64,000 nucleotides of DNA. It comes from Halonatronum saccharophilum DSM 13868 (GTDB taxonomy: Bacteria > Bacillota > Halanaerobiia > Halobacteroidales > Halobacteroidaceae). Positions 1,440 through 63,125 of this stretch are shown here, one piece after another (within the stretch, counting starts at the first letter, position 1; each line of letters opens with the position of its first letter). The notes below the pieces were generated by a model, which was not told where the DNA came from, ran no database searches, and was given only the letters and a program-made list of their open reading frames with translations. The stretch covers positions 453,688-517,687 of the forward strand of contig NZ_KI912097.1 of assembly GCF_000517025.1 (NCBI RefSeq). Direction: 5' to 3'. Made by a program: the position numbers and the translations under genes.

Positions 1440-2438
1440 ATGAAATTAAATAAATTGAAAAAAGGAGATATAATAGGATTTTACTCTCCTTCTTCACCGG
1501 TAACGTATACTTCACCAAAAAGATTTGAAAGAGCTAAGGAATATCTTAAAAGTAAAGGGTTTAATCTATTACCTGGAAAATTGACTGGTAAAGAAGACTT
1601 TTATAGATCAGGGAGTATAGAAGAAAGAGCAGAGGAATTAAATGAATTAATTAGAAACCCTAAAGTTAAATGTATTATGTCGACAATTGGTGGGACAAAC
1701 TCTAACTCAATATTACCATATATTGATTACAAAGCATTTAAGGAAAACCCTAAAATTATAATAGGTTATTCAGATGTAACTGCTATTTTATTAGCTATAT
1801 ATGCTAAAACGGGAATAAAAACTTTTTATGGACCAGCTTTAGTCCCTTCTTTTGGAGAATTCCCTCCCTTTGTTCATAATACATATAATTATTTTAGCGA
1901 TATTTTAATAGAAGAACAAAGCTTACCTTATAGCTATAAAGTACCAGAGTATTGGACAGATGAGCATATAAATTGGGAAGAAAAAGAAAGAGAAAAATTA
2001 AAAAATAAAAATGAGTGGATAGCAGTTAATAAGGGTAGAACAATTGGAAGAATAATAGGTGGGAACTTAAATACTATGTCTGGTATTTGGGGAAGTGAAT
2101 ATATGCCTGAGATTAAAAAAGGAGATATTTTATTTATTGAAGATACAACAAAAACTGCATCACATATGGAAAAAATATTTTCTTTACTTAAAGTAAGTGG
2201 TGTATTTGATAAAATATCAGGAATTATTTTAGGAAAGCATGAATTATTTGATGATCAGAGAACAGGTAGAGAACCTTATGAAATATTAAAAGAAGTTTTA
2301 AAAGATAAAAAGATACCTTTTTTAGCTAAATTTGATTGTTGTCATACTCATCCTATGTTAACCTTACCGATTGGTTCAAAAGTCGAATTAGATGTTACTA
2401 ATAAAAAAGTTAGTATATTAGATAGTCCGCGGGGGTAG
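1440..2438 (+). CDS. S66 family LD-carboxypeptidase / MccF-like serine peptidase
   Basis: A 332-residue S66 peptidase, the family that includes muramoyltetrapeptide LD-carboxypeptidases and MccF, which inactivates microcin C-type peptidyl-nucleotides. The nucleophile elbow reads GYSD with Ser111. The catalytic Glu is in LFIEDT (Glu234). The His is in the FDCCHTHPMLTLPIG segment (His302). All three positions needed for catalysis are present and the length is normal. I chose ATG 1440 because AAAGGAG lies 9 bases upstream; an in-frame ATG at 1275 has no such site and adds residues foreign to the family. It is cytoplasmic, with no signal peptide. Its closer resemblance to MccF than to LdcA, and its place between mobile-element relics, favour a resistance or immunity role over cell-wall recycling. 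That is inference. Confidence 0.85.
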   Translation: MKLNKLKKGDIIGFYSPSSPVTYTSPKRFERAKEYLKSKGFNLLPGKLTGKEDFYRSGSIEERAEELNELIRNPKVKCIMSTIGGTNSNSILPYIDYKAFKENPKIIIGYSDVTAILLAIYAKTGIKTFYGPALVPSFGEFPPFVHNTYNYFSDILIEEQSLPYSYKVPEYWTDEHINWEEKEREKLKNKNEWIAVNKGRTIGRIIGGNLNTMSGIWGSEYMPEIKKGDILFIEDTTKTASHMEKIFSLLKVSGVFDKISGIILGKHELFDDQRTGREPYEILKEVLKDKKIPFLAKFDCCHTHPMLTLPIGSKVELDVTNKKVSILDSPRG

Positions 2439-2540
2439 CACTACACCTAAACCAGCTAATAATGGCTATTTATATTATTTTATTTATATCAAAGAATTAC
2501 TCGTTCTATTGTTACTTCTTGGGGGACTAAAGTTGAAAAG

Positions 2541-3056
2541 TTGGCAGTTTCTTGTGGAGCAGAAAGTATTCCCAGGAAAGAGAATGTGTCAGCTAATGGA
2601 AAGAAATTCGATGTTAAAAAAGAGAAAGATGGAAAGAAGTATTATATTCAAGTAAAAAGTGGTCTCAATACAATGAATGTTGGTATGGTAGAATCTTTGA
2701 ATGAAATGATAGAGAAAATAGAAGAAAAAGATTCTAAAAATGTTGGGTTATTAGGTATGACTTTTGGTAATAAAAAGGCTATTTCAACTCAAATTATGGA
2801 TAATCTTATTAATGCTGATGAGAAAATTATAATTGGAAATGATTTTTGGGATTTTATTTCAGAAAAGTACAATATGTCAGAAGAATTATTGAATATAGTT
2901 TCAAAAGCTGCTTATAATTATCAAATTAAGCATAAGGAAAAGAAAATTTCTGACTTAATTGATATTAAAAAGGAAGAATTACTAGTTCAATGGGAAAATA
3001 CTTATGGAGGAATTAATAAAGAATCGTTGAAAAAAGCAGAGGATGTAAATTTATAG
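2541..3056 (+). CDS. type II restriction endonuclease, TdeIII-like, N-terminally truncated
   Basis: The 171-residue product carries a PD-(D/E)XK-type core: FDVKKEKDGKKYYIQVKSG gives the E/D-x-K strand pair, followed by LLGMTFG and a DFWDFISEKY helix, as in TdeIII/PmeII-type restriction enzymes. It stands 77 bases before a cytosine-C5 methyltransferase, a normal restriction-modification order. The first in-frame start is TTG 2541 with only a weak GGGGG upstream. The frame is open back to 2463 and those extra residues (RITRSIVTSWGTKVEK) look like family sequence. So the natural N-terminus has probably been lost by a rearrangement near 2440-2490. The enzyme may be inactive. Family assignment is from motif memory. 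Confidence 0.55.
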   Translation: MAVSCGAESIPRKENVSANGKKFDVKKEKDGKKYYIQVKSGLNTMNVGMVESLNEMIEKIEEKDSKNVGLLGMTFGNKKAISTQIMDNLINADEKIIIGNDFWDFISEKYNMSEELLNIVSKAAYNYQIKHKEKKISDLIDIKKEELLVQWENTYGGINKESLKKAEDVNL

Positions 3057-3133
3057 TTTTACTAGAATTATTTATATTGTACATACTAAAATAAATAGTA
3101 GTATAGTTGTAGTATTAAATGGAGGGTTAATAA

Positions 3134-4546
3134 ATGAAGTATAAAACAGTTGATTTATTTTGTGGTGCTGGAGGTTTTAGTAAAGGTTTCGAAATGTCAG
3201 ATAAATTTAATATTTTTAAAGCTTATGATGTTAATGAAGAAGCTTTAAAAACTTATAATGTTAATCATCAAGGAGAAGGAATTAATTATGATATTACTGG
3301 AAAAGTACCTGAATATTTAAAAGATCGTAGCATAGATGTATTAATTGGTTCTCCTCCTTGTCAAGGGTTTAGTGATGCTAAAGGAAGCCGAAAATTAGAG
3401 GATGAAAGAAATAATTTAGTTTTTCATTTTATTAGATGGGTAAGAGAAATACAACCTAAAGTAGTAGTTATGGAGAATGTGGAAGGAATTTTAACTATTA
3501 GTGATAATTTTCTTAAAGAGGTTGAAGATGAATATGATAAAAGTGGATACGTTGTTAAGTATGATGTATTAAATTCAAAGGATTTTGGAGTGCCTCAAAA
3601 AAGGAAGAGAGCTATTTTTATAGCTACTAAAAAAGATATGACTTGCCCTTCGTTGCCTAGACCTATTACTGGAAAGCAATTGAATTTATTTAATGATAAG
3701 CAATTATTTAAATCACATATAACAGTAGGAGATGCTATTTCTGATTTGCCAAAATCTAATATAGATAGTAATGAAATTTTAGATTATAAATTAAATTCTC
3801 AAAATAAATATCAAAGAATTATGAGACGGTATAGTAAAAAAGTTTACAATCATATTGCTAAATCTCCACGTGAAAAGGATATGTTTATAGTAGAAAAAAT
3901 TCCAGAAGGTAAAATGTATCGTAGTACTAGGTTTGGTAATAAATATGTAGGTGTTTGGGATTTGTTTAAAGATGAATTTACTTTTGAACAAAGACTAATA
4001 TTATGGTTTATAGCTAGGCACCGCGGGAGAAAGGCTTATAAGTTAGAGAAAAAGAGTGGCCCAGATTATATACCTGAAAATAAAATTATTGAGTCTTTAA
4101 AGAATAGAAAAGTTTTACAAGAAGCTATCAATTATGGTTTTAAAGAATTAATTGAACAAAAATTTAGTATAACTATTAAAGATATTAGAAGTTTAAAAGA
4201 ATCTGGTTGGTTACGTAAAAAAGAGAAAGAGGGAATAACAGCTTATGACCTTAATAGTAAATCAGGTATTAGACCTCGTTATATGAGACTTAACAGGGGG
4301 GATCAATCTAATACTATTTTAACTACAGATTTTAATGCTAGAGAAAAGTTGCATCCTTTTGAGAATAGAGGACTTTCTTTGCGAGAAGGAGCAAGAATTC
4401 AAAGTTTTCCTGATGATTTTATATTTGAAGGAGAATTTGATGCAATTGCCACTCAAATAGGTAATGCTGTTCCACCTTTAATGGCAAAAGCTATAGCTGA
4501 ACATATTATTCAGTTTTTAGAAAAAAGACAAAAAGAAGCAATTTGA
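3134..4546 (+). CDS. dcm: DNA (cytosine-5-)-methyltransferase
   Basis: A 470-residue C5-cytosine methyltransferase that transfers a methyl group from SAM to cytosine in its target site. Motif I is DLFCGAGGFSKGFE at the N-terminus. Motif IV is GSPPCQGFS with catalytic Cys76, motif VI is MENVEG with Glu114, motif VIII is QKRKRAIFIA. Motif X near the C-terminus reads GNAVPPLMAKAIAEHI. A long variable stretch of about 180 residues between motifs VIII and IX should hold the target recognition domain. All catalytic motifs are intact, so it is likely active. GGAGGG sits 8 bases before the ATG. It pairs with the truncated endonuclease upstream. The target sequence cannot be read from the protein by eye. 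Confidence 0.93.
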   Translation: MKYKTVDLFCGAGGFSKGFEMSDKFNIFKAYDVNEEALKTYNVNHQGEGINYDITGKVPEYLKDRSIDVLIGSPPCQGFSDAKGSRKLEDERNNLVFHFIRWVREIQPKVVVMENVEGILTISDNFLKEVEDEYDKSGYVVKYDVLNSKDFGVPQKRKRAIFIATKKDMTCPSLPRPITGKQLNLFNDKQLFKSHITVGDAISDLPKSNIDSNEILDYKLNSQNKYQRIMRRYSKKVYNHIAKSPREKDMFIVEKIPEGKMYRSTRFGNKYVGVWDLFKDEFTFEQRLILWFIARHRGRKAYKLEKKSGPDYIPENKIIESLKNRKVLQEAINYGFKELIEQKFSITIKDIRSLKESGWLRKKEKEGITAYDLNSKSGIRPRYMRLNRGDQSNTILTTDFNAREKLHPFENRGLSLREGARIQSFPDDFIFEGEFDAIATQIGNAVPPLMAKAIAEHIIQFLEKRQKEAI

Positions 4547-4660
4547 ACAAATGTTTTGAGAGCAGCTATATTTAGTTGCTCTTTTCATTATATTAATTTA
4601 GATCTATAAATTACTGATATATAGTTTATGATAAAAATTTATTTGGTAAAAAGAGGACTT

Positions 4661-4838
4661 CGTTTAAACTAGCTAATAAAATTTAAGGTTAAGTAAAGGT
4701 TGGCTAATATAAATGGTTTAAAGGGTATATTAAAGTAAGATCTTTTAGAACAAAAAAAGCGGATAAAACCATATGTAGGGTTTGAAGTGGCGGGGACTGG
4801 GAAGTTAACTTAGGCGTGAGGCGTTGGCCCTGTTTATA
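4661..4838 (+). mobile_element. second, shrunken copy of the intron-associated repeat
   Basis: Diverged and internally deleted version of sequence seen at 950-1400. The segment GGTTAAGTAAAGGTTGGCTA resembles GGTTAAGTAAGATTCGCTA at 957. The run around 4740-4760 (TCTTTTAGAACAAAAAAAGC) matches 1058-1078. The block ending GCGTTGGCCCTG at 4831 matches 1391-1400. No gene lies inside. With the copy upstream it brackets the S66 peptidase and the restriction-modification genes. Confidence 0.4.
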
Positions 4839-4897
4839 TACTAGGACTAAAAGACAAATTTCACCTTAAATCATAAAGAATTTAGGAGGTTATCGCT

Positions 4898-5008
4898 ATG
4901 CCATTTATTAATATAAAAATGGCTAAAGGAAGAATATTAGAAGACAAAGATATTGCTTATATTTGGGAATTAATAAAGAGAGATTTTAAAGAGCGGTTTA
5001 TTACGTGA
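4898..5008 (+). pseudogene. 4-oxalocrotonate tautomerase-like fragment
   Basis: Thirty-six codons starting at an ATG with a perfect TAGGAGGT site 7 bases upstream. The N-terminus MPFINIKMAKGR is typical of the tautomerase superfamily: the proline after the initiator Met is the catalytic base, followed by the first beta strand. Intact members are about 60 residues and continue with a helix and second strand. Here the frame runs off after a few helix residues and stops, so the gene is probably truncated or frameshifted. It lies just beyond the second intron-like relic, and the rearrangement may have broken it. A real 36-residue protein cannot be excluded. Confidence 0.4.
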
Positions 5009-5032
5009 TACATAGTTATAAATAGAAAAAAA

Positions 5033-5066
5033 CTTATCAAGGGAAGTCTAGACTCCTCTTGATAAG
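5033..5066. terminator. bidirectional hairpin terminator
   Basis: Near-perfect palindrome: CTTATCAAG and an AGTCTAGACT core pair with CTTGATAAG. An A-run lies on the left and CTTTT follows on the right. It closes the accessory region. Confidence 0.7.
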
Positions 5067-5315
5067 CTTTTAATATTATAGATAATTGAATTAAATTAAC
5101 TCTTTAATTTTATCCATTAATCTATTAATAGCAAAGTAAATAAATCCTAATGATTTTGCACTTGAGGTTTTAAGGTTTAAAAAGATAAAGATTAAAGGTA
5201 TTTGCACTGATTAGATCTGATAAGTGCGGATTAAGATCCGATAAGAGTGACAAAAAACAATAAATTAAAAATTAGGGTTAGAAGGAGTTTGGAACTTGTT
5301 TGAAGAATTAAATAA
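5067..5315. other. intergenic, repeat-derived sequence
   Basis: No gene supported. Positions 5168-5240 contain the words TTTTAAGG, AAAGATAAAGATTAAAGGTATTTGC and GATTAGATCTGATAAG. They recur in the repeats at 16.46-16.93 kb, so this is a relic of the same intergenic repeat family. AGAAGGAG at 5279-5286 is the ribosome site of the next gene. Confidence 0.45.
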
Positions 5316-5744
5316 TTGGAAGAAAACCCTATATATTATGACCATCTTGATATGGCAAAGGAGAAGATGATGAAGGATAAAAAACAATTAAGAGAAGAGG
5401 TTCTTGGGTTAGAGGAAAAATTACTTGATGCCAATGTACGTCAATCAGCAGAAAGTCTAAATCAACTGCTAGCAGATGATTTCAGCGAATTTTGTAGCTC
5501 TGGCAAAGTATATCAATATCAACCGGGAGATGTTTTTACTACTGGAGACTATAAGGAATCTTGGAAAATTAAAGATTTTTCTATTGATATATTAGCTGAC
5601 AACCTAATATTAGCTAAATATAAACTGCTCAAAGGTAATGATTTAGAAGGGCAGAAAAAACACTCCCTACGCAGTTCAATATGGAAATTAACAGATGATA
5701 ACTGGAAGATGTTATTTCATCAAGGAACATTAATCCCAAGGTAA
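5316..5744 (+). CDS. DUF4440/SnoaL-like (NTF2 fold) protein, possible 5' frameshift
   Basis: Small cytoplasmic protein with the DUF4440 pattern: an N-terminal helix (LREEVLGLEEKLLDANVRQS), LNQLLADDFSEF, and C-terminal strands ending SIWKLTDDNWKMLFHQGTLIPR. Family members have an NTF2 fold and mostly unknown substrates. The start is doubtful. TTG 5316 has no ribosome site and a stop sits directly before it. A good AGAAGGAG plus TTG 5296 lies in another frame and would begin MFEELNN before shifting into LEENPIYYDHL, which reads naturally across the join. A one-base frameshift near 5313 is likely, natural or a sequencing error. ATG 5352 is a fallback start. Monocistronic. Confidence 0.65.
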   Translation: MEENPIYYDHLDMAKEKMMKDKKQLREEVLGLEEKLLDANVRQSAESLNQLLADDFSEFCSSGKVYQYQPGDVFTTGDYKESWKIKDFSIDILADNLILAKYKLLKGNDLEGQKKHSLRSSIWKLTDDNWKMLFHQGTLIPR

Positions 5745-57514: not shown

Positions 57515-58741
57515 ATGGAAGTTGTAGAGGATCAGAAATTTTCGCAACAAAAGAATAGATGGATGTACATACCTTTAGGACTTATAATCTTTATGTGTAT
57601 GGGTACTGTATATGCTTGGAGTATATTTAGAAAGCCAGTTGAGGAACTTTTTGGTATAAGTGCTACTCAAAGTGGTTTGCCTTATATGGCTTTTTTGGTT
57701 TCGTATGCAGTCTTAATGCCTATAGCAGGTGGGATGATAGATAAGTACGGGCCAAGAAAGATGACTATATCTGGAGGCTTGCTGGTATCTATAGGGTGGC
57801 TTTTAGCTGGATTTTCTCCAGAGATCAATTTTGCTTTTCTAATATTCTCCTATGGGATAATTGGTGGTGCAGGTGTTGGGATAGCCTATGGAGCTCCTAT
57901 GGCGGTAGCTGCTAAATGGTTTCCTGATAAGAAGGGCTTGGCAGTAGGGATGACCCTGGGTGGTTTTGGACTCTCACCTTTAGTAACTGCGCCTTTAGCT
58001 AATTGGTTGATAGATGGGTATGGACCTTTTGTTGCTTTTAAGGTAATAGGGATAGCATTTGCTATTATTATTACCATCTTATCCTTGCCTTTAAAATTTC
58101 CAGATGAAGAGCTTGGAGTTGAAGATGAGGATGACTTTGAGGCAAAGATAGATATTGATACTAAAAGTATGTTAAATACTCCTGTCTTTTATGGTCTCTG
58201 GATAACTTATATAATAGGTACTCTGACAGGGCTTATGGCTATTGGGATTGCTAGTCCAGTAGGTGAAGAGGTAGTAGGTTTAGAGGCAAGACAGGCAGCC
58301 TTTATGGTCTCTTTCTTTGCTATCTTTAATGGTATAGGTAGACCTATCTTTGGTTGGATTACCGATAGATACAGTCCTAAGTGGGCTGCAGTATCTTCTT
58401 ATATTTTAATCATTATTGCATCTTTATTGATGCTGATAGCAGGAGAGGGTAATGCCTTTATTTATGGGCTTGCTTTTGCAATATTCTGGCTTAATTTAGG
58501 AGGGTGGTTGGCAATTGTTCCAGCAGCTACGGCTATCTTCTTTGGTGATAAGCATTATAGTAAGAACTATGGTTATCTCTTTACAGCTTATGGAGTTGGA
58601 GCTATATTTGGTAACTTTATCTCTGGTAGGTTAAGAGATGTATTAGGAACTTATTTATATACATTCTATCCAACAGCTATTTTAGCTGGAATAGGGATTA
58701 TTATAGCAATCTTCTTCTTGGATAATGAGAAAATTGCTTGA
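57515..58741 (+). CDS. OFA-family MFS transporter
   Basis: A 408-residue major facilitator with 12 hydrophobic segments. PLGLIIFMCMGTVYAWSIFRKPVEELFGIS starts TM1, as in oxalate/formate antiporter relatives. GGMIDKYGPRKM is the loop 2-3 motif, and GRPIFGWITDRYSPK is its repeat in the second half. AFMVSFFAIFNGIGRPI and YGVGAIFGNFISGRLRD support the OFA group. Such proteins move small carboxylates, but the substrate is not certain. Single gene, converging on cooS across a large hairpin. Confidence 0.88.
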   Translation: MEVVEDQKFSQQKNRWMYIPLGLIIFMCMGTVYAWSIFRKPVEELFGISATQSGLPYMAFLVSYAVLMPIAGGMIDKYGPRKMTISGGLLVSIGWLLAGFSPEINFAFLIFSYGIIGGAGVGIAYGAPMAVAAKWFPDKKGLAVGMTLGGFGLSPLVTAPLANWLIDGYGPFVAFKVIGIAFAIIITILSLPLKFPDEELGVEDEDDFEAKIDIDTKSMLNTPVFYGLWITYIIGTLTGLMAIGIASPVGEEVVGLEARQAAFMVSFFAIFNGIGRPIFGWITDRYSPKWAAVSSYILIIIASLLMLIAGEGNAFIYGLAFAIFWLNLGGWLAIVPAATAIFFGDKHYSKNYGYLFTAYGVGAIFGNFISGRLRDVLGTYLYTFYPTAILAGIGIIIAIFFLDNEKIA

Positions 58742-58933: not shown

Positions 58934-61066
58934 TTATTCTAATCCCAACTCTTTTCTCTTCTTATTGATATGATCTACATAGATATCTACTGTTTTTTCT
59001 GCATCCATCTCTACTACTACCTTTCCTAGTCCTAACTCTTCAGTAGTTTCGGTTAAGGTTTTAACCACTACATCACTACCTGTAATCGATGGAACTGGGG
59101 CAATATGGACTAACCATCCTAAGGCTATTGCTGTACAAGCATCTGCTACTGCTTTCTGCTCTAGGTACTCTGGTGCTCCAATGACTAAAGGTAGTTTATT
59201 TGTATCTACATCTAATTCATCAGCAATCTCTTTGGCTGTCTGAGTCATCTTACCGATATCAACACAGGCTCCATAGTTTAGAACTGGAGGAATACCTAAC
59301 TGTTCACAGACTGCTTTCAAACCGTCTCCAGCTTCTTGAGCGGCTTTAGGATCTGTTAAACCAGTATACTGCATAACACTGGAAGTACATCCTCCTGATA
59401 AGACAAGGATGTTATTCTCTATTAGACCTTTAGTAATCTTGAAGATATTACTCCCACCTTGTCCATATCTAGCAGTAGTACAACCAACAATAGTAGCAAT
59501 TCCTTTGATATTCCCATTGGCTATCTGTTCAATAAGGGGTGTAAAACTTCCTCCTAAGGCTTCTCTTACTGACTCTGTACTGAATCCTACAGTACAATCA
59601 GATACATAAGGAGGAATATAGGTCTCTTTATTCTCTTGTTTTCTCTCTTTGAAGGATTCTATTGCTTTATTTAAGGCTTTTTGGGCTTGTTCTTTCATCT
59701 TCTCTGGAATAAAATCTAAGGTTTCTGTTCCTTGTAGTTTGATTACTGGATGGGTACTCAATAGCTTAGTACCAAATTTCTTTGCAAATAAAGGCATAGT
59801 AGGAACTGTACAGTTATAATCGAACATAAACATATCGACGACTCCAGTAGCAAGAAGGTATTCTTGGGATAACCATTCTCCTTCTTGACCACCGTATCCT
59901 TTGGTATTGTGAGTTCCAGAGTAGTTCATAAGCTGTTGACCTTCACAGACATGGCCAAGGATTTGAATGCCATCTGCACCAGCATCTTTAGCTTTTTGTT
60001 GCCATTCATCACTAGAAGCAAGGTCGATTGCCACATGAGCAAGTAGTGGCATATGTCCATTTGTAATAACATTGACCATATTCTTTTCTAAAAGACCCAT
60101 ATTCTGTTTCTTTTTAGTAATTTCTTGGGTACCCATTAAGATCTCTTGTAGTATATCTAAGAGGAATAATCCTTGGTATTCATTAGCAATACCTAAGCGA
60201 ACAGATCTTAATAAAAATTCGATAGGATCAGAGTTGAAGTTGGTCATACATTGGGTTTGAGAATAGGCAACTTCACTATACCCACCTCCTGGGAACAATC
60301 CAAGCTTTCTCCATAACTTTTTTCTTTTTTCTGGAGCAAAGGCTTTGACAGCTTCAGATTCAAGGTGATAGGGTCTGTGAATATCGTCAATAACCCAATT
60401 AGCGAAATCGACTGCTAATTGTTCAATTGCTTTATTAGAATCTAACCCTGCCATTTCGGCAAATTTTTTTAACTTTTCTCCATCACGAATCTTTAATCCA
60501 CTCTCGGAGTGTTCACCAGCAGCTTTTAGTGTACGGGCAGCTTGTTGAGCGTGGAATATATTGGCTGATGTACCTATAGTCACATGTCTATACATAAAGT
60601 TTCTTGCTACCATTGTATGAGCATCGACGCCACAGGTCCCCCTAGATGCTTTTGGGTGTATCCTACAAGGTCCGTTGGCGCAGAGTTGGCAGGATAGCCC
60701 TTCAACACAGAATTTACACTGGATAGGTTGCTGTTGGCTAAAACGGTCGAAGACATTGGTTATATCGGCTTTGTTGACTACTTGATACATTTCTCTCATT
60801 GCTGGATCAATTATTACATTCATTGGGTATCCATCTATAGATTGATCCTTCTTTTCAATATGTTCTCTTTGCCATTTGTGGACCTCTTCCATTGATAGAG
60901 ATTTTTCTATCTTTTCATAATCTGCTTTAAACTTTTTGTGAATATCTTGGTGATTATCAGGCTCATTATAATCTTCATCAGATAATTGAGAGCCTATAGC
61001 CTTTCCGCTTCCTCTCATTCTAGCGGTACTTCGCTCATAAGATTCTTTTACATCTTTGTCAGACAT
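58934..61066 (-). CDS. cooS: anaerobic Ni-Fe carbon monoxide dehydrogenase catalytic subunit, divergent
   Basis: A 710-residue CooS that interconverts CO and CO2. Against CODH-II as I recall it, all C-cluster ligands remain: His338, Cys374, Cys419, Cys529, Cys560, Cys601; Lys638 matches the catalytic lysine. B-cluster cysteines 126, 129, 134 and 145 are in LSCQLCANGPCRI...GTCG. The D-cluster pair is CKFC (117, 120), the CX2C spacing linked to [2Fe-2S] D-clusters, instead of CX7C. The catalytic His93 position appears to be Asn169. The C295 loop reads GHVCEGQQ, not GICCTGNE. There is a ~100-residue N-terminal extension. No cooC, cooF, hydrogenase or ACS gene is adjacent. AAAGGAGGC precedes the ATG. 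Confidence 0.92.
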   Translation of the reverse strand: MSDKDVKESYERSTARMRGSGKAIGSQLSDEDYNEPDNHQDIHKKFKADYEKIEKSLSMEEVHKWQREHIEKKDQSIDGYPMNVIIDPAMREMYQVVNKADITNVFDRFSQQQPIQCKFCVEGLSCQLCANGPCRIHPKASRGTCGVDAHTMVARNFMYRHVTIGTSANIFHAQQAARTLKAAGEHSESGLKIRDGEKLKKFAEMAGLDSNKAIEQLAVDFANWVIDDIHRPYHLESEAVKAFAPEKRKKLWRKLGLFPGGGYSEVAYSQTQCMTNFNSDPIEFLLRSVRLGIANEYQGLFLLDILQEILMGTQEITKKKQNMGLLEKNMVNVITNGHMPLLAHVAIDLASSDEWQQKAKDAGADGIQILGHVCEGQQLMNYSGTHNTKGYGGQEGEWLSQEYLLATGVVDMFMFDYNCTVPTMPLFAKKFGTKLLSTHPVIKLQGTETLDFIPEKMKEQAQKALNKAIESFKERKQENKETYIPPYVSDCTVGFSTESVREALGGSFTPLIEQIANGNIKGIATIVGCTTARYGQGGSNIFKITKGLIENNILVLSGGCTSSVMQYTGLTDPKAAQEAGDGLKAVCEQLGIPPVLNYGACVDIGKMTQTAKEIADELDVDTNKLPLVIGAPEYLEQKAVADACTAIALGWLVHIAPVPSITGSDVVVKTLTETTEELGLGKVVVEMDAEKTVDIYVDHINKKRKELGLE

Positions 61067-61146: not shown

Positions 61147-61461
61147 ATATTAAAAGCCTATAAGTCAAACATACCTATAGTTAATTTAAGGGCTTTTGGT
61201 TTATCAGTCTTTTCTATGGGAGAGATTGATGAGAAGAAGGCCACTTTTGTAATCTTAGAAGAGGACTTAGATAATAATAAGTATACTTTAACCTTAGACT
61301 ACAAGATAATAGGGATGATTGTTGTAGGAGATATGGTTAAGGCTTTGGCTTTGCGAAAGGTTATAGCAAAAGGGATTGAGCTAGATGGGGTGGACTTTAG
61401 TGACTTATCGCCAGATGAGCTGGTTGAGATAATAGCTAAAGAAGGTTTTGTGATGGTATAA
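61147..61461 (+). pseudogene. C-terminal remnant of an FAD/NAD oxidoreductase
   Basis: A 105-codon open frame without start codon or ribosome site at its beginning; the first ATG (61216) lies inside it. The text LKAYKSNIPIVNLRAFGLSVFSMGEIDEK, then DNNKYTLTLDYKIIGMIVVGDMVKALALRKVIAKG, resembles the C-terminal part of rubredoxin/nitrite-reductase-type FAD-NAD(P)H oxidoreductases. In those proteins 'VFSxGDID' and 'KIVGAILVGD' are usual words. The FAD and NAD Rossmann domains are missing. Such oxidoreductases commonly accompany CooS with CooF, so this is probably the decayed partner gene. Identification is by eye. Confidence 0.55.
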
Positions 61462-61697: not shown

Positions 61698-61922
61698 ATG
61701 AGAAAAGTTAGATTCTGCGAAAATAATTTCAGTCAAGGCATAGAGAGGGTTATAAATCTATTAGAGGAGAAGTTTGAAGAGGTAAATGTAGAAGTAGAAC
61801 CGTGCTTGGGTTATTGTAATGACTGTGTCCTTGGCCTTTTTGCGGTAGTAAATGAACATTTTGTTCAAGGTGAGACGATAGAAAAATTATATGATGAAAT
61901 CAAAAGTGAGTTTGCTCACTAA
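61698..61922 (+). CDS. DUF1450 family protein (YuzB-like)
   Basis: A 74-residue protein with the DUF1450 pattern: VRFCENNFSQG near the N-terminus, then VEPCLGYCNDCVLGLFAVVNEHFVQGETIEKLYDEI. The cysteines (FC, PCxxxC, DC) are those conserved in YuzB relatives and could bind metal or a cluster. Function unknown. AAGGGG precedes the ATG. It is followed at once by the hairpin TTGGCACTTTCGTGCCAA. Cytoplasmic, single gene. Confidence 0.85.
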   Translation: MRKVRFCENNFSQGIERVINLLEEKFEEVNVEVEPCLGYCNDCVLGLFAVVNEHFVQGETIEKLYDEIKSEFAH

Positions 61923-62114: not shown

Positions 62115-63125
62115 TTATCTTTTGTAAGCAGGTATAGAAAGTAACTCATCTACAGTAACCATTTCAATATTTCTTTTTTGTAGTTCTTCAATTATTATCG
62201 CTAATGCTTCTACTGTAGGTCTTAAGCTTTGCCCTTCTCCACCGGCAGAGTGGAAGAGGATGTTGGCACCTCCATGTAAGTTAGGGATAGTCCTTTCTAT
62301 AACTTCTGATTTATCCTTGGCCCTCCAATCAAGGGAGTCTACCGACCAATTTACTACAGAGTAGTTCATATCATATAATTGCTTTAATACCTTATTAGAT
62401 ACTGCACCATAAGGTGGTCTTATCATAGCCGTTTTGCGACTAATTACTTTCTCTAGTGCTTTTTCAGTTCTCATTACCTCTTCTTCCACTCTTTCTTCGC
62501 TTATTCTTCTTAAGTCAGCATGTGACCAAGAGTGGTTGGCTATAGTATGTCCATCTTTTAAAATTTGTCGGACGACATCAGGGTGTTTCTCAACACGCTG
62601 ACCAACCAAGAAGAAGGTGGCTTTAATATTATACTCTCTTAATACATCAAGAACCTGAGGAGTATAAACAGCATCTGGACCGTCATCGAAGGTAAGTGCT
62701 GCTCTCATAGTATTTGGCCCTCTTCGATAAAGTTTTCTTTCAACCGGTGTCTCTTTTTGTGCAACTACGGCTTTATTATTCTCTCTAGATTGCCAAGCTG
62801 AATCTCTAAAAGAGGCACGGTTATTTGAGTTATTTCTTGAAGAATTATTGTTTGAGTTATTCACGATTCTTTCATTATTAGAACTAGATCCTGTACTTAA
62901 GGCAGGAACTGTAAGCCTATCACCAGTAAGAATTAAATTAGGGTTATCAATATTATTTAGATCAATTAAAGATGAGATTGATATACTAAATTTTTGTGAA
63001 ATAGTAAAGAGTGAATCTCCTTGTTGAACAGTATACCTTTGGTAGGCATCTGCTACTGAAGCGACTATAAGAATTAATACAACAACTAATGCTAATGTGA
63101 TAATGTGTCTATTATTTAGTTTCAA
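62115..63125 (-). CDS. LysM-containing polysaccharide deacetylase (NodB/CE4)
   Basis: A 336-residue exported enzyme. A signal or anchor segment (HIITLALVVVLILIVASVADA) is followed by a LysM domain (YTVQQGDSLFTISQKFSISISSLIDLNNI...) and an Asn/Ser-rich linker. The NodB deacetylase domain has TFDDGPDAVYTP with the catalytic Asp pair, NHSWSHADL with the metal histidines, RPPYGAVS, and NWSVDSLDW. All are intact. It probably deacetylates peptidoglycan or a surface polysaccharide. TTG 63125 with GGAGG 11 bases upstream is the best start. Similar LysM-NodB proteins occur in sporulating Firmicutes. Confidence 0.92.
   Translation of the reverse strand: MKLNNRHIITLALVVVLILIVASVADAYQRYTVQQGDSLFTISQKFSISISSLIDLNNIDNPNLILTGDRLTVPALSTGSSSNNERIVNNSNNNSSRNNSNNRASFRDSAWQSRENNKAVVAQKETPVERKLYRRGPNTMRAALTFDDGPDAVYTPQVLDVLREYNIKATFFLVGQRVEKHPDVVRQILKDGHTIANHSWSHADLRRISEERVEEEVMRTEKALEKVISRKTAMIRPPYGAVSNKVLKQLYDMNYSVVNWSVDSLDWRAKDKSEVIERTIPNLHGGANILFHSAGGEGQSLRPTVEALAIIIEELQKRNIEMVTVDELLSIPAYKR

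Follow-up and report, generated by a model that had tools for sequence, protein, structure and literature searches.

A carbon monoxide dehydrogenase-like protein of structural group D-2 in Halonatronum saccharophilum retains the C-cluster ligands within a CooS-V-like pocket

The window, the whole 64,000-nucleotide stretch of the Halonatronum saccharophilum DSM 13868 genome that was analyzed, encodes on its minus strand a 710-aa protein (58934..61066) from an open reading frame (ORF) with an ATG start and the ribosome-binding site AAGGAGG ahead of it. As stated in the original prediction, the substance of which was borne out by alignment, this is a protein of the carbon monoxide dehydrogenase (CODH) family: it scores 679.5 bits against the CODH model TIGR01702 (cut-off, 478), and alignment and tree assign it to structural group D-2 of clade D. 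The predicted structure (mean pLDDT, 92.4) has as its top fold match in the PDB the CooS-V protein of Carboxydothermus hydrogenoformans (rmsd, 1.5 Å), a member of group D-1 (PDB 7b7q) that also leads the PDB matches by sequence, at ∼38% identity. The PF03063 complement of the H. saccharophilum genome (2.88 Mb, 99% complete; same family as Orenia) consists of one class I hybrid-cluster protein (HCP), the D-2 protein, and one short HCP-like fragment, with no second CODH found among these proteins. Elsewhere in the genome, beyond the window, a 103-aa ORF next to a LuxS-like gene (C8:549520-549780; L003/L146) resembles a class III HCP from which a large internal segment has been deleted, starting like a class III N terminus and otherwise matching the prismane C terminus.

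On one side of the D-2 gene lies an MFS L-lactate-type transporter gene (57515..58741, plus strand; NF049980) whose product is 69% identical to its neighborhood counterpart in Orenia. Upstream of and divergent from the D-2 gene are the 3′ remnant of a FAD-dependent reductase gene with a Rubredoxin_C domain (61147..61461, plus strand; ATG ORF at 61216-61461) and a gene for a 74-aa DUF1450 protein with conserved cysteines (61698..61922, plus strand; PF07293, 5e-16), the only such gene in the genome, followed by a LysM deacetylase gene (62115-63125, minus strand). The remnant, the frame of which is closed upstream, aligns across 92 residues, at 46% identity, with positions 310-401 of a 405-aa Orenia reductase. 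The original prediction that no maturation or electron-transfer genes are adjacent thus has to be relaxed, given that the surroundings are not quite free of redox genes. In Orenia G087 (L136), the transporter, an intact reductase, DUF1450, and deacetylase genes occur in the same order without D-2; the D-2 gene therefore seems to have entered an existing locus in Halonatronum, with loss of most of the reductase, and the transporter marks the ancestral locus common to the two genera. The 81-aa neighbor was considered as a free-standing partner and rejected because it is a gene remnant, and the D-2-less Orenia locus likewise weakens the adjacency of DUF1450 in the window as proof of partnership. 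The D-2 gene adjoins a true reductase remnant and might itself be decaying and functionless, but its 710-aa frame is intact, its product is 87 to 89% identical to the Orenia orthologs, and 313 of 626 core positions are invariant across 45 D-2 sequences; given this conservation, decay is extremely unlikely.

The cluster and active-site residues were examined in a MAFFT alignment of the window protein, 44 other D-2 sequences, CooS-V, DvCODH, ChCODH-IV, and CODHs of other clades, using the residue numbering of CODH-II (His93, His96, His261, Cys295, Lys563, etc.). The ligand set of the C-cluster, one histidine and five cysteines, is complete, as the original prediction held, and all the following features are on the minus strand: His338 (His261; 60053..60055), Cys374 (Cys295; 59945..59947), Cys419 (Cys333; within Asn418-Cys419, 59810..59815), Cys529 (Cys446; 59480..59482), Cys560 (Cys476; 59387..59389), and Cys601 (Cys526; 59264..59266). 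Likewise, H172 corresponds to His96 and K638 to Lys563. The predicted change of the CCTGNE loop to VCEGQQ was also recovered, V373-C374 being aligned with Cys294-Cys295 so that valine replaces the first cysteine. The D-cluster motif is C117-X2-C120 (60707..60718), with serine in place of Cys47 and the next cysteine at the B-cluster position, that is, the Cys-X2-Cys-X5-Cys pattern of type III as defined by Inoue et al. (PMC6344411). The CX2C spacing had been singled out earlier and is confirmed; it is not diagnostic, and [2Fe-2S] D-clusters with this spacing occur in DvCODH and CooS-V as well.

Four other positions set the D-2 proteins apart from the class E/F CO-oxidizing Ni-CODHs (CODH-II, CODH-IV, and DvCODH), with which they share the fold, the B-cluster, the C-cluster ligands, and Lys563. 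The acid-base catalyst His93 is replaced by Asn169 (60560..60562) in 45/45 D-2 rows, where D-1 and clade C have tyrosine and canonical CODHs histidine; the loss of this histidine had been suspected, and an alignment with the CODH clades places no histidine there. Asn418, Glu636, and Asp642 are also fixed in all 45 rows, whereas the CO-oxidizing enzymes have at these positions, respectively, Gln (before Cys333), mostly Ser or His (two residues before Lys563), and Ile567 in nearly all cases. All three are present in CooS-V; clade C has the same Asn and Glu, and Asp in most rows. Glu636 belongs to the motif Glu636-Gln637-Lys638 (59153..59161), in which E636 and K638 occur in 45/45 rows, and stands two residues before the catalytic lysine, like Glu494 of HCP and Glu556 of CooS-V. 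Since the same residues are invariant in every D-2 sequence aligned, chance is no issue for this pattern.

The pocket is most like that of CooS-V, with which D-2 shares the CX2C D-cluster, the asparagine before the cysteine ligand, the Glu and Lys of the E-Q-K motif, and Asp642. The two differ in Cys374 for Glu295, Asn169 for Tyr, and Val373 for Ile, all other compared pocket positions being equal. CooS-V is a Ni-free hybrid-cluster enzyme that catalyzes neither CO oxidation nor CO2 reduction; its Glu556 ligates iron, and its Asn337, the counterpart of Asn418, hydrogen-bonds cluster water (PMC9311411). The replacement of Cys295 by Glu, which is considered the chief step toward the hybrid cluster (PMC9311411) and characterizes D-1, has not taken place in D-2, which has Cys374 there. 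Compared with HCPs of classes I and III, D-2 shares the prismane fold and the glutamate two residues before the lysine position, but it has a D-cluster and a CODH-type core, has a cysteine where Glu is found in CooS-V, and belongs to a different clade. A further distinction from CooS-V is an N-terminal extension (residues 1-84; 60815..61066, minus strand) that is kept throughout D-2. Its presence had been noted correctly and its length, given as ∼100 residues, overestimated: matches to most solved CODHs begin at query residues 84 to 95, for an extension of ∼84 residues. Conservation of the extension is lower (mean majority identity, 0.72, versus 0.89 for the core), and a PDB search found no relative of it.

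These features are those of a published group. Structural group D-2, represented by WP_015926279, is defined by Inoue et al. 2019 (PMC6344411) by a type III D-cluster, a complete C-cluster, replacement of the histidine by Asn, a retained Lys, and occurrence in bacteria only, and the window protein has all these sequence features (type III D-cluster, full C-cluster, Asn169, Lys638). No difference from D-2 was found relative to that description, which, rather than the WP_015926279 sequence, was the basis of comparison. In the tree, a quick ML search over 51 rows that covers neither D-3 nor D-4 and for which the program warns of long branches, D-2 forms one clade (support, 100), with D-1 including CooS-V as its sister (97), clade C joining next (99), and all His-bearing CODHs on the opposite side (99). 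The original prediction had taken the protein to be divergent, by implication outside the standard clades; instead, it falls within clade D at 97% support, and, with 44 other D-2 sequences carrying the same residues, it is a member of an already published, uncharacterized group rather than an outlier. Judged by sequence and tree, D-2 belongs to the CODH/hybrid-cluster superfamily. At the sequence level, the Asn418/Glu636/Asp642 signature is a new addition to the group description; neither Asn418/Asp642 nor the lack of CooC and acetyl-CoA synthase (ACS) is listed for D-2 in the text of Inoue et al. (PMC6344411) that was available.

The 44 other aligned D-2 sequences are all from Bacillota and are 68 to 89% identical to the window protein, and full-length homologs occur in Clostridia, Negativicutes (Sporomusaceae), and Halanaerobiia. 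Within the class of Thermohalobacter, 15/391 genomes carry D-2, compared to 6/59 for Halanaerobiia. The window protein is 79 to 84% identical to most D-2 proteins of other classes (68 to 71% for Sporomusaceae and genome G037), against 52 to 58% for the housekeeping protein CoaBC in the same comparison; this gap means that the protein is under strong constraint, has been transferred, or both. No CODH other than D-2 occurs in 10 of 30 genomes. D-1 was found in none of the D-2 genomes with classified PF03063 proteins and in 8 of the other 53 Halanaerobiia; we read this mutual exclusion as one role filled by two groups, the Halanaerobiia numbers alone not being significant.

In contrast to the class E/F enzymes, D-2 lacks a CooC or ACS partner. 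ACS (PF03598) is absent from Halonatronum, from the nine other D-2-only genomes tested, and, more widely, from 22 of 26 genomes with D-2; the remaining four, which do have ACS, also encode a canonical CODH. CooC, the usual but not strictly required maturase of CO-oxidizing Ni,Fe-CODHs, was searched for using a Thermohalobacter protein (L152:7125-7907) as the query; at E ≤ 1e-10, it was found in 8/8 control genomes with His-bearing CODHs and in neither Halonatronum nor the other D-2-only genomes tested. The absence of CooC is no proof that nickel is absent; what can be said is that no dedicated nickel insertion was found. Two of these observations are new: the genomes tested that have D-2 as their sole CODH lack both CooC and ACS, and D-1 and D-2 exclude each other. 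The main alternative sees D-2 as a genuine Ni,Fe-CODH that acquires its nickel independently of CooC and in which the part of His93 is taken by Asn169 or some other residue; such an enzyme would be slow or would be adapted to reducing CO2, scavenging CO, or balancing redox. Retention of all six C-cluster ligands and Lys563 and a score well above the TIGR01702 equivalog cut-off agree with such an enzyme, as may a Lachnospiraceae enrichment reported to have some CODH activity and no canonical CODH (PMC7000372); there, “Candidatus Galacturonibacter soehngenii” has two PF03063 ORFs, the better candidate of which was called an HCP homolog (PMC7000372). However, the pocket His, Gln, Ser/His, and Ile are all replaced, mutation of the acid-base catalyst abolishes activity, as cited by Inoue et al. 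(PMC6344411), the D-2-only genomes tested lack CooC and ACS, and Thermococcus CODHs made without CooC are Ni-free according to their PDB entry titles. A nickel enzyme of this kind is accordingly rather unlikely. For CODH-II H93A, a structure has been deposited (PDB 7zxl). The suggestion in the original prediction of a slow or oxygen-tolerant CODH is the less likely reading, and its other suggestion, a purpose different from CO oxidation, is the probable one: the histidine is lost, three more pocket residues are like those of CooS-V and HCP, and CooC and ACS were not found in the genome. CO oxidation thus appears unlikely as the role of D-2.

Gene context is informative at a minority of the D-2 loci: by our own count, stress-related or Fe-S neighbors occur at ∼16/56 (roughly 30%), and the remainder share little. 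For example, in Thermohalobacter (L007), the D-2 gene has as divergent neighbors the genes for a class III HCP, a Crp/Fnr regulator, and RIC/ScdA; those for a hemerythrin, DUF1450, and the reductase are convergent with it. In Orenia, D-2 lies beside a gene for a DUF438-hemerythrin protein, with flavodoxin as the next gene, and in Orenia G086, a further reductase-DUF1450 pair comes after D-2. Other neighbors include Crp/Fnr (L118 and L119), DUF1858 (L118 and L124), Mn catalase (L039), and, in four Anaerocolumna, suf genes. The reductase, DUF1450, and Crp/Fnr neighbors are shared with HCP in some loci, a gene-context link of D-2 to HCP partners that is new here. Comparison of near with far neighbors gave 4 versus 0 for DUF1450, 3 versus 0 for Rubredoxin_C, and 2 versus 2 for hemerythrin, which alone is therefore no signal. 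DUF1450 is present in 18/44 genomes with D-2 compared to 12/429 in sets that were drawn differently and, within one Clostridia sample that includes the center genome, in 3/15 D-2 genomes compared to 9/376 (p = 0.008), an excess that is suggestive only.

The NorW/NirB-like FAD reductase and DUF1450 genes also occur in tandem apart from D-2: in one locus (L126, G014:C10:82000-90000; 2192-5375, plus strand), the two genes lie ahead of class I hcp, and in another (L149, G077:C20; 7618-10499), they adjoin a class III HCP, near a D-1 protein. They are possibly an unrecognized electron-donor pair for hybrid-cluster proteins, and their separate link to HCP is the best hint of a donor chain that HCP and clade D proteins might have in common. 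In a further locus (L133, G005:C33; 2998-3526, plus strand), DUF1450 adjoins a 76-aa fragment of an HCP C terminus.

With respect to regulation, Thermohalobacter, Orenia, and G037 have sites that match the HcpR consensus wTGTGAN6TCACAw (PMC1274295) with at most one mismatch, at a distance of 33 to 129 bases upstream of D-2 (3 found versus 0.05 expected); the Thermohalobacter site also lies ahead of the divergent hcp, to which it may belong. The window promoter has no HcpR-like site, and FNR, Rex, PerR, Fur, NsrR, and HcpR2 motifs showed no clear excess in D-2 promoters. Regulators close by at some loci, the mostly solitary D-2 gene, and the redox-sensing roles suggested for clade D (PMC13056359) would suit a redox or gas sensor or other regulatory protein whose cluster reports O2, NO, or CO without turnover; yet a domain search found no output domain among the 710 residues, the chain of electron-transfer clusters is complete, and the deep conservation of the pocket fits catalysis equally well, which makes such a role distinctly improbable.

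Taken together, the evidence leans toward D-2 being a Ni-free, HCP-like reductase that would act in nitrosative or oxidative stress defense, not CO oxidation. In its favor we count the replacement of the canonical residues by Asn169, Asn418, Glu636, and Asp642, the CooS-V-like pocket, the fold match, the sister position of D-1, the lack of ACS and CooC, the exclusion of D-1, the HcpR-like sites in three lineages, and the neighbors at the minority of loci (class III HCP, RIC, hemerythrin, Crp/Fnr, DUF1858, SUF, Mn catalase, and the reductase-DUF1450 pair). Counted against it are the retention of Cys295, the majority of D-2 loci, which have no informative neighbor, the window promoter and reductase remnant described above, and the presence of a class I HCP in most D-2 genomes. 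As such a reductase, D-2 would presumably be a homodimer, like its family, with an active-site cluster resembling that of CooS-V/HCP, Ni-free and of Fe-S or Fe-S-O composition, in which Cys374 would replace Glu295 of CooS-V and Glu636 would be the hybrid-cluster carboxylate. Low-potential electrons would enter via the D- and B-clusters, and the substrate may be a small oxidized nitrogen or oxygen species, e.g., NO or NH2OH. The substrate is the weakest step, and a point against the proposal, because CooS-V reduces hydroxylamine poorly and NO not detectably (PMC9311411). A more tentative extension, on the doubtful side, is that D-2 holds a cluster type not seen before, a Ni-free Fe-S(-O) cluster with Cys where CooS-V has Glu, served in at least some species by NorW-like NADH reductase and DUF1450 carriers, and so adds one more type to the hybrid-cluster reductases of anaerobes.

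Databases label D-2 proteins as carbon monoxide dehydrogenase, and they would pass the filter of a recent survey, namely, five C-cluster cysteines plus intact B- and D-clusters (PMC13240472); if D-2 is Ni-free, counts of CO-metabolizing organisms made in this way are too high. D-2 stands between CODHs and hybrid-cluster enzymes, and because Cys295 is kept along with most of the remaining CooS-V pocket, it offers a direct test of which residues set the metal choice.

Several unusual relatives were also encountered. One D-2 gene (L115, G157:C15) has an in-frame TGA ∼66 codons in, maybe a sequencing or assembly error. On a single contig (L087/L168, G011:C157), three adjacent genes encode an HCP, a CODH-like protein of 899 aa, and a protein of 793 aa that is only ∼21% identical to CODHs. 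Finally, three Ruminiclostridium genomes (G006, G012, and G010; L157, L159, and L086) encode, in addition to D-2, a long-branch CODH-like group that keeps His93 and has Asp at the Cys333 position (L086).
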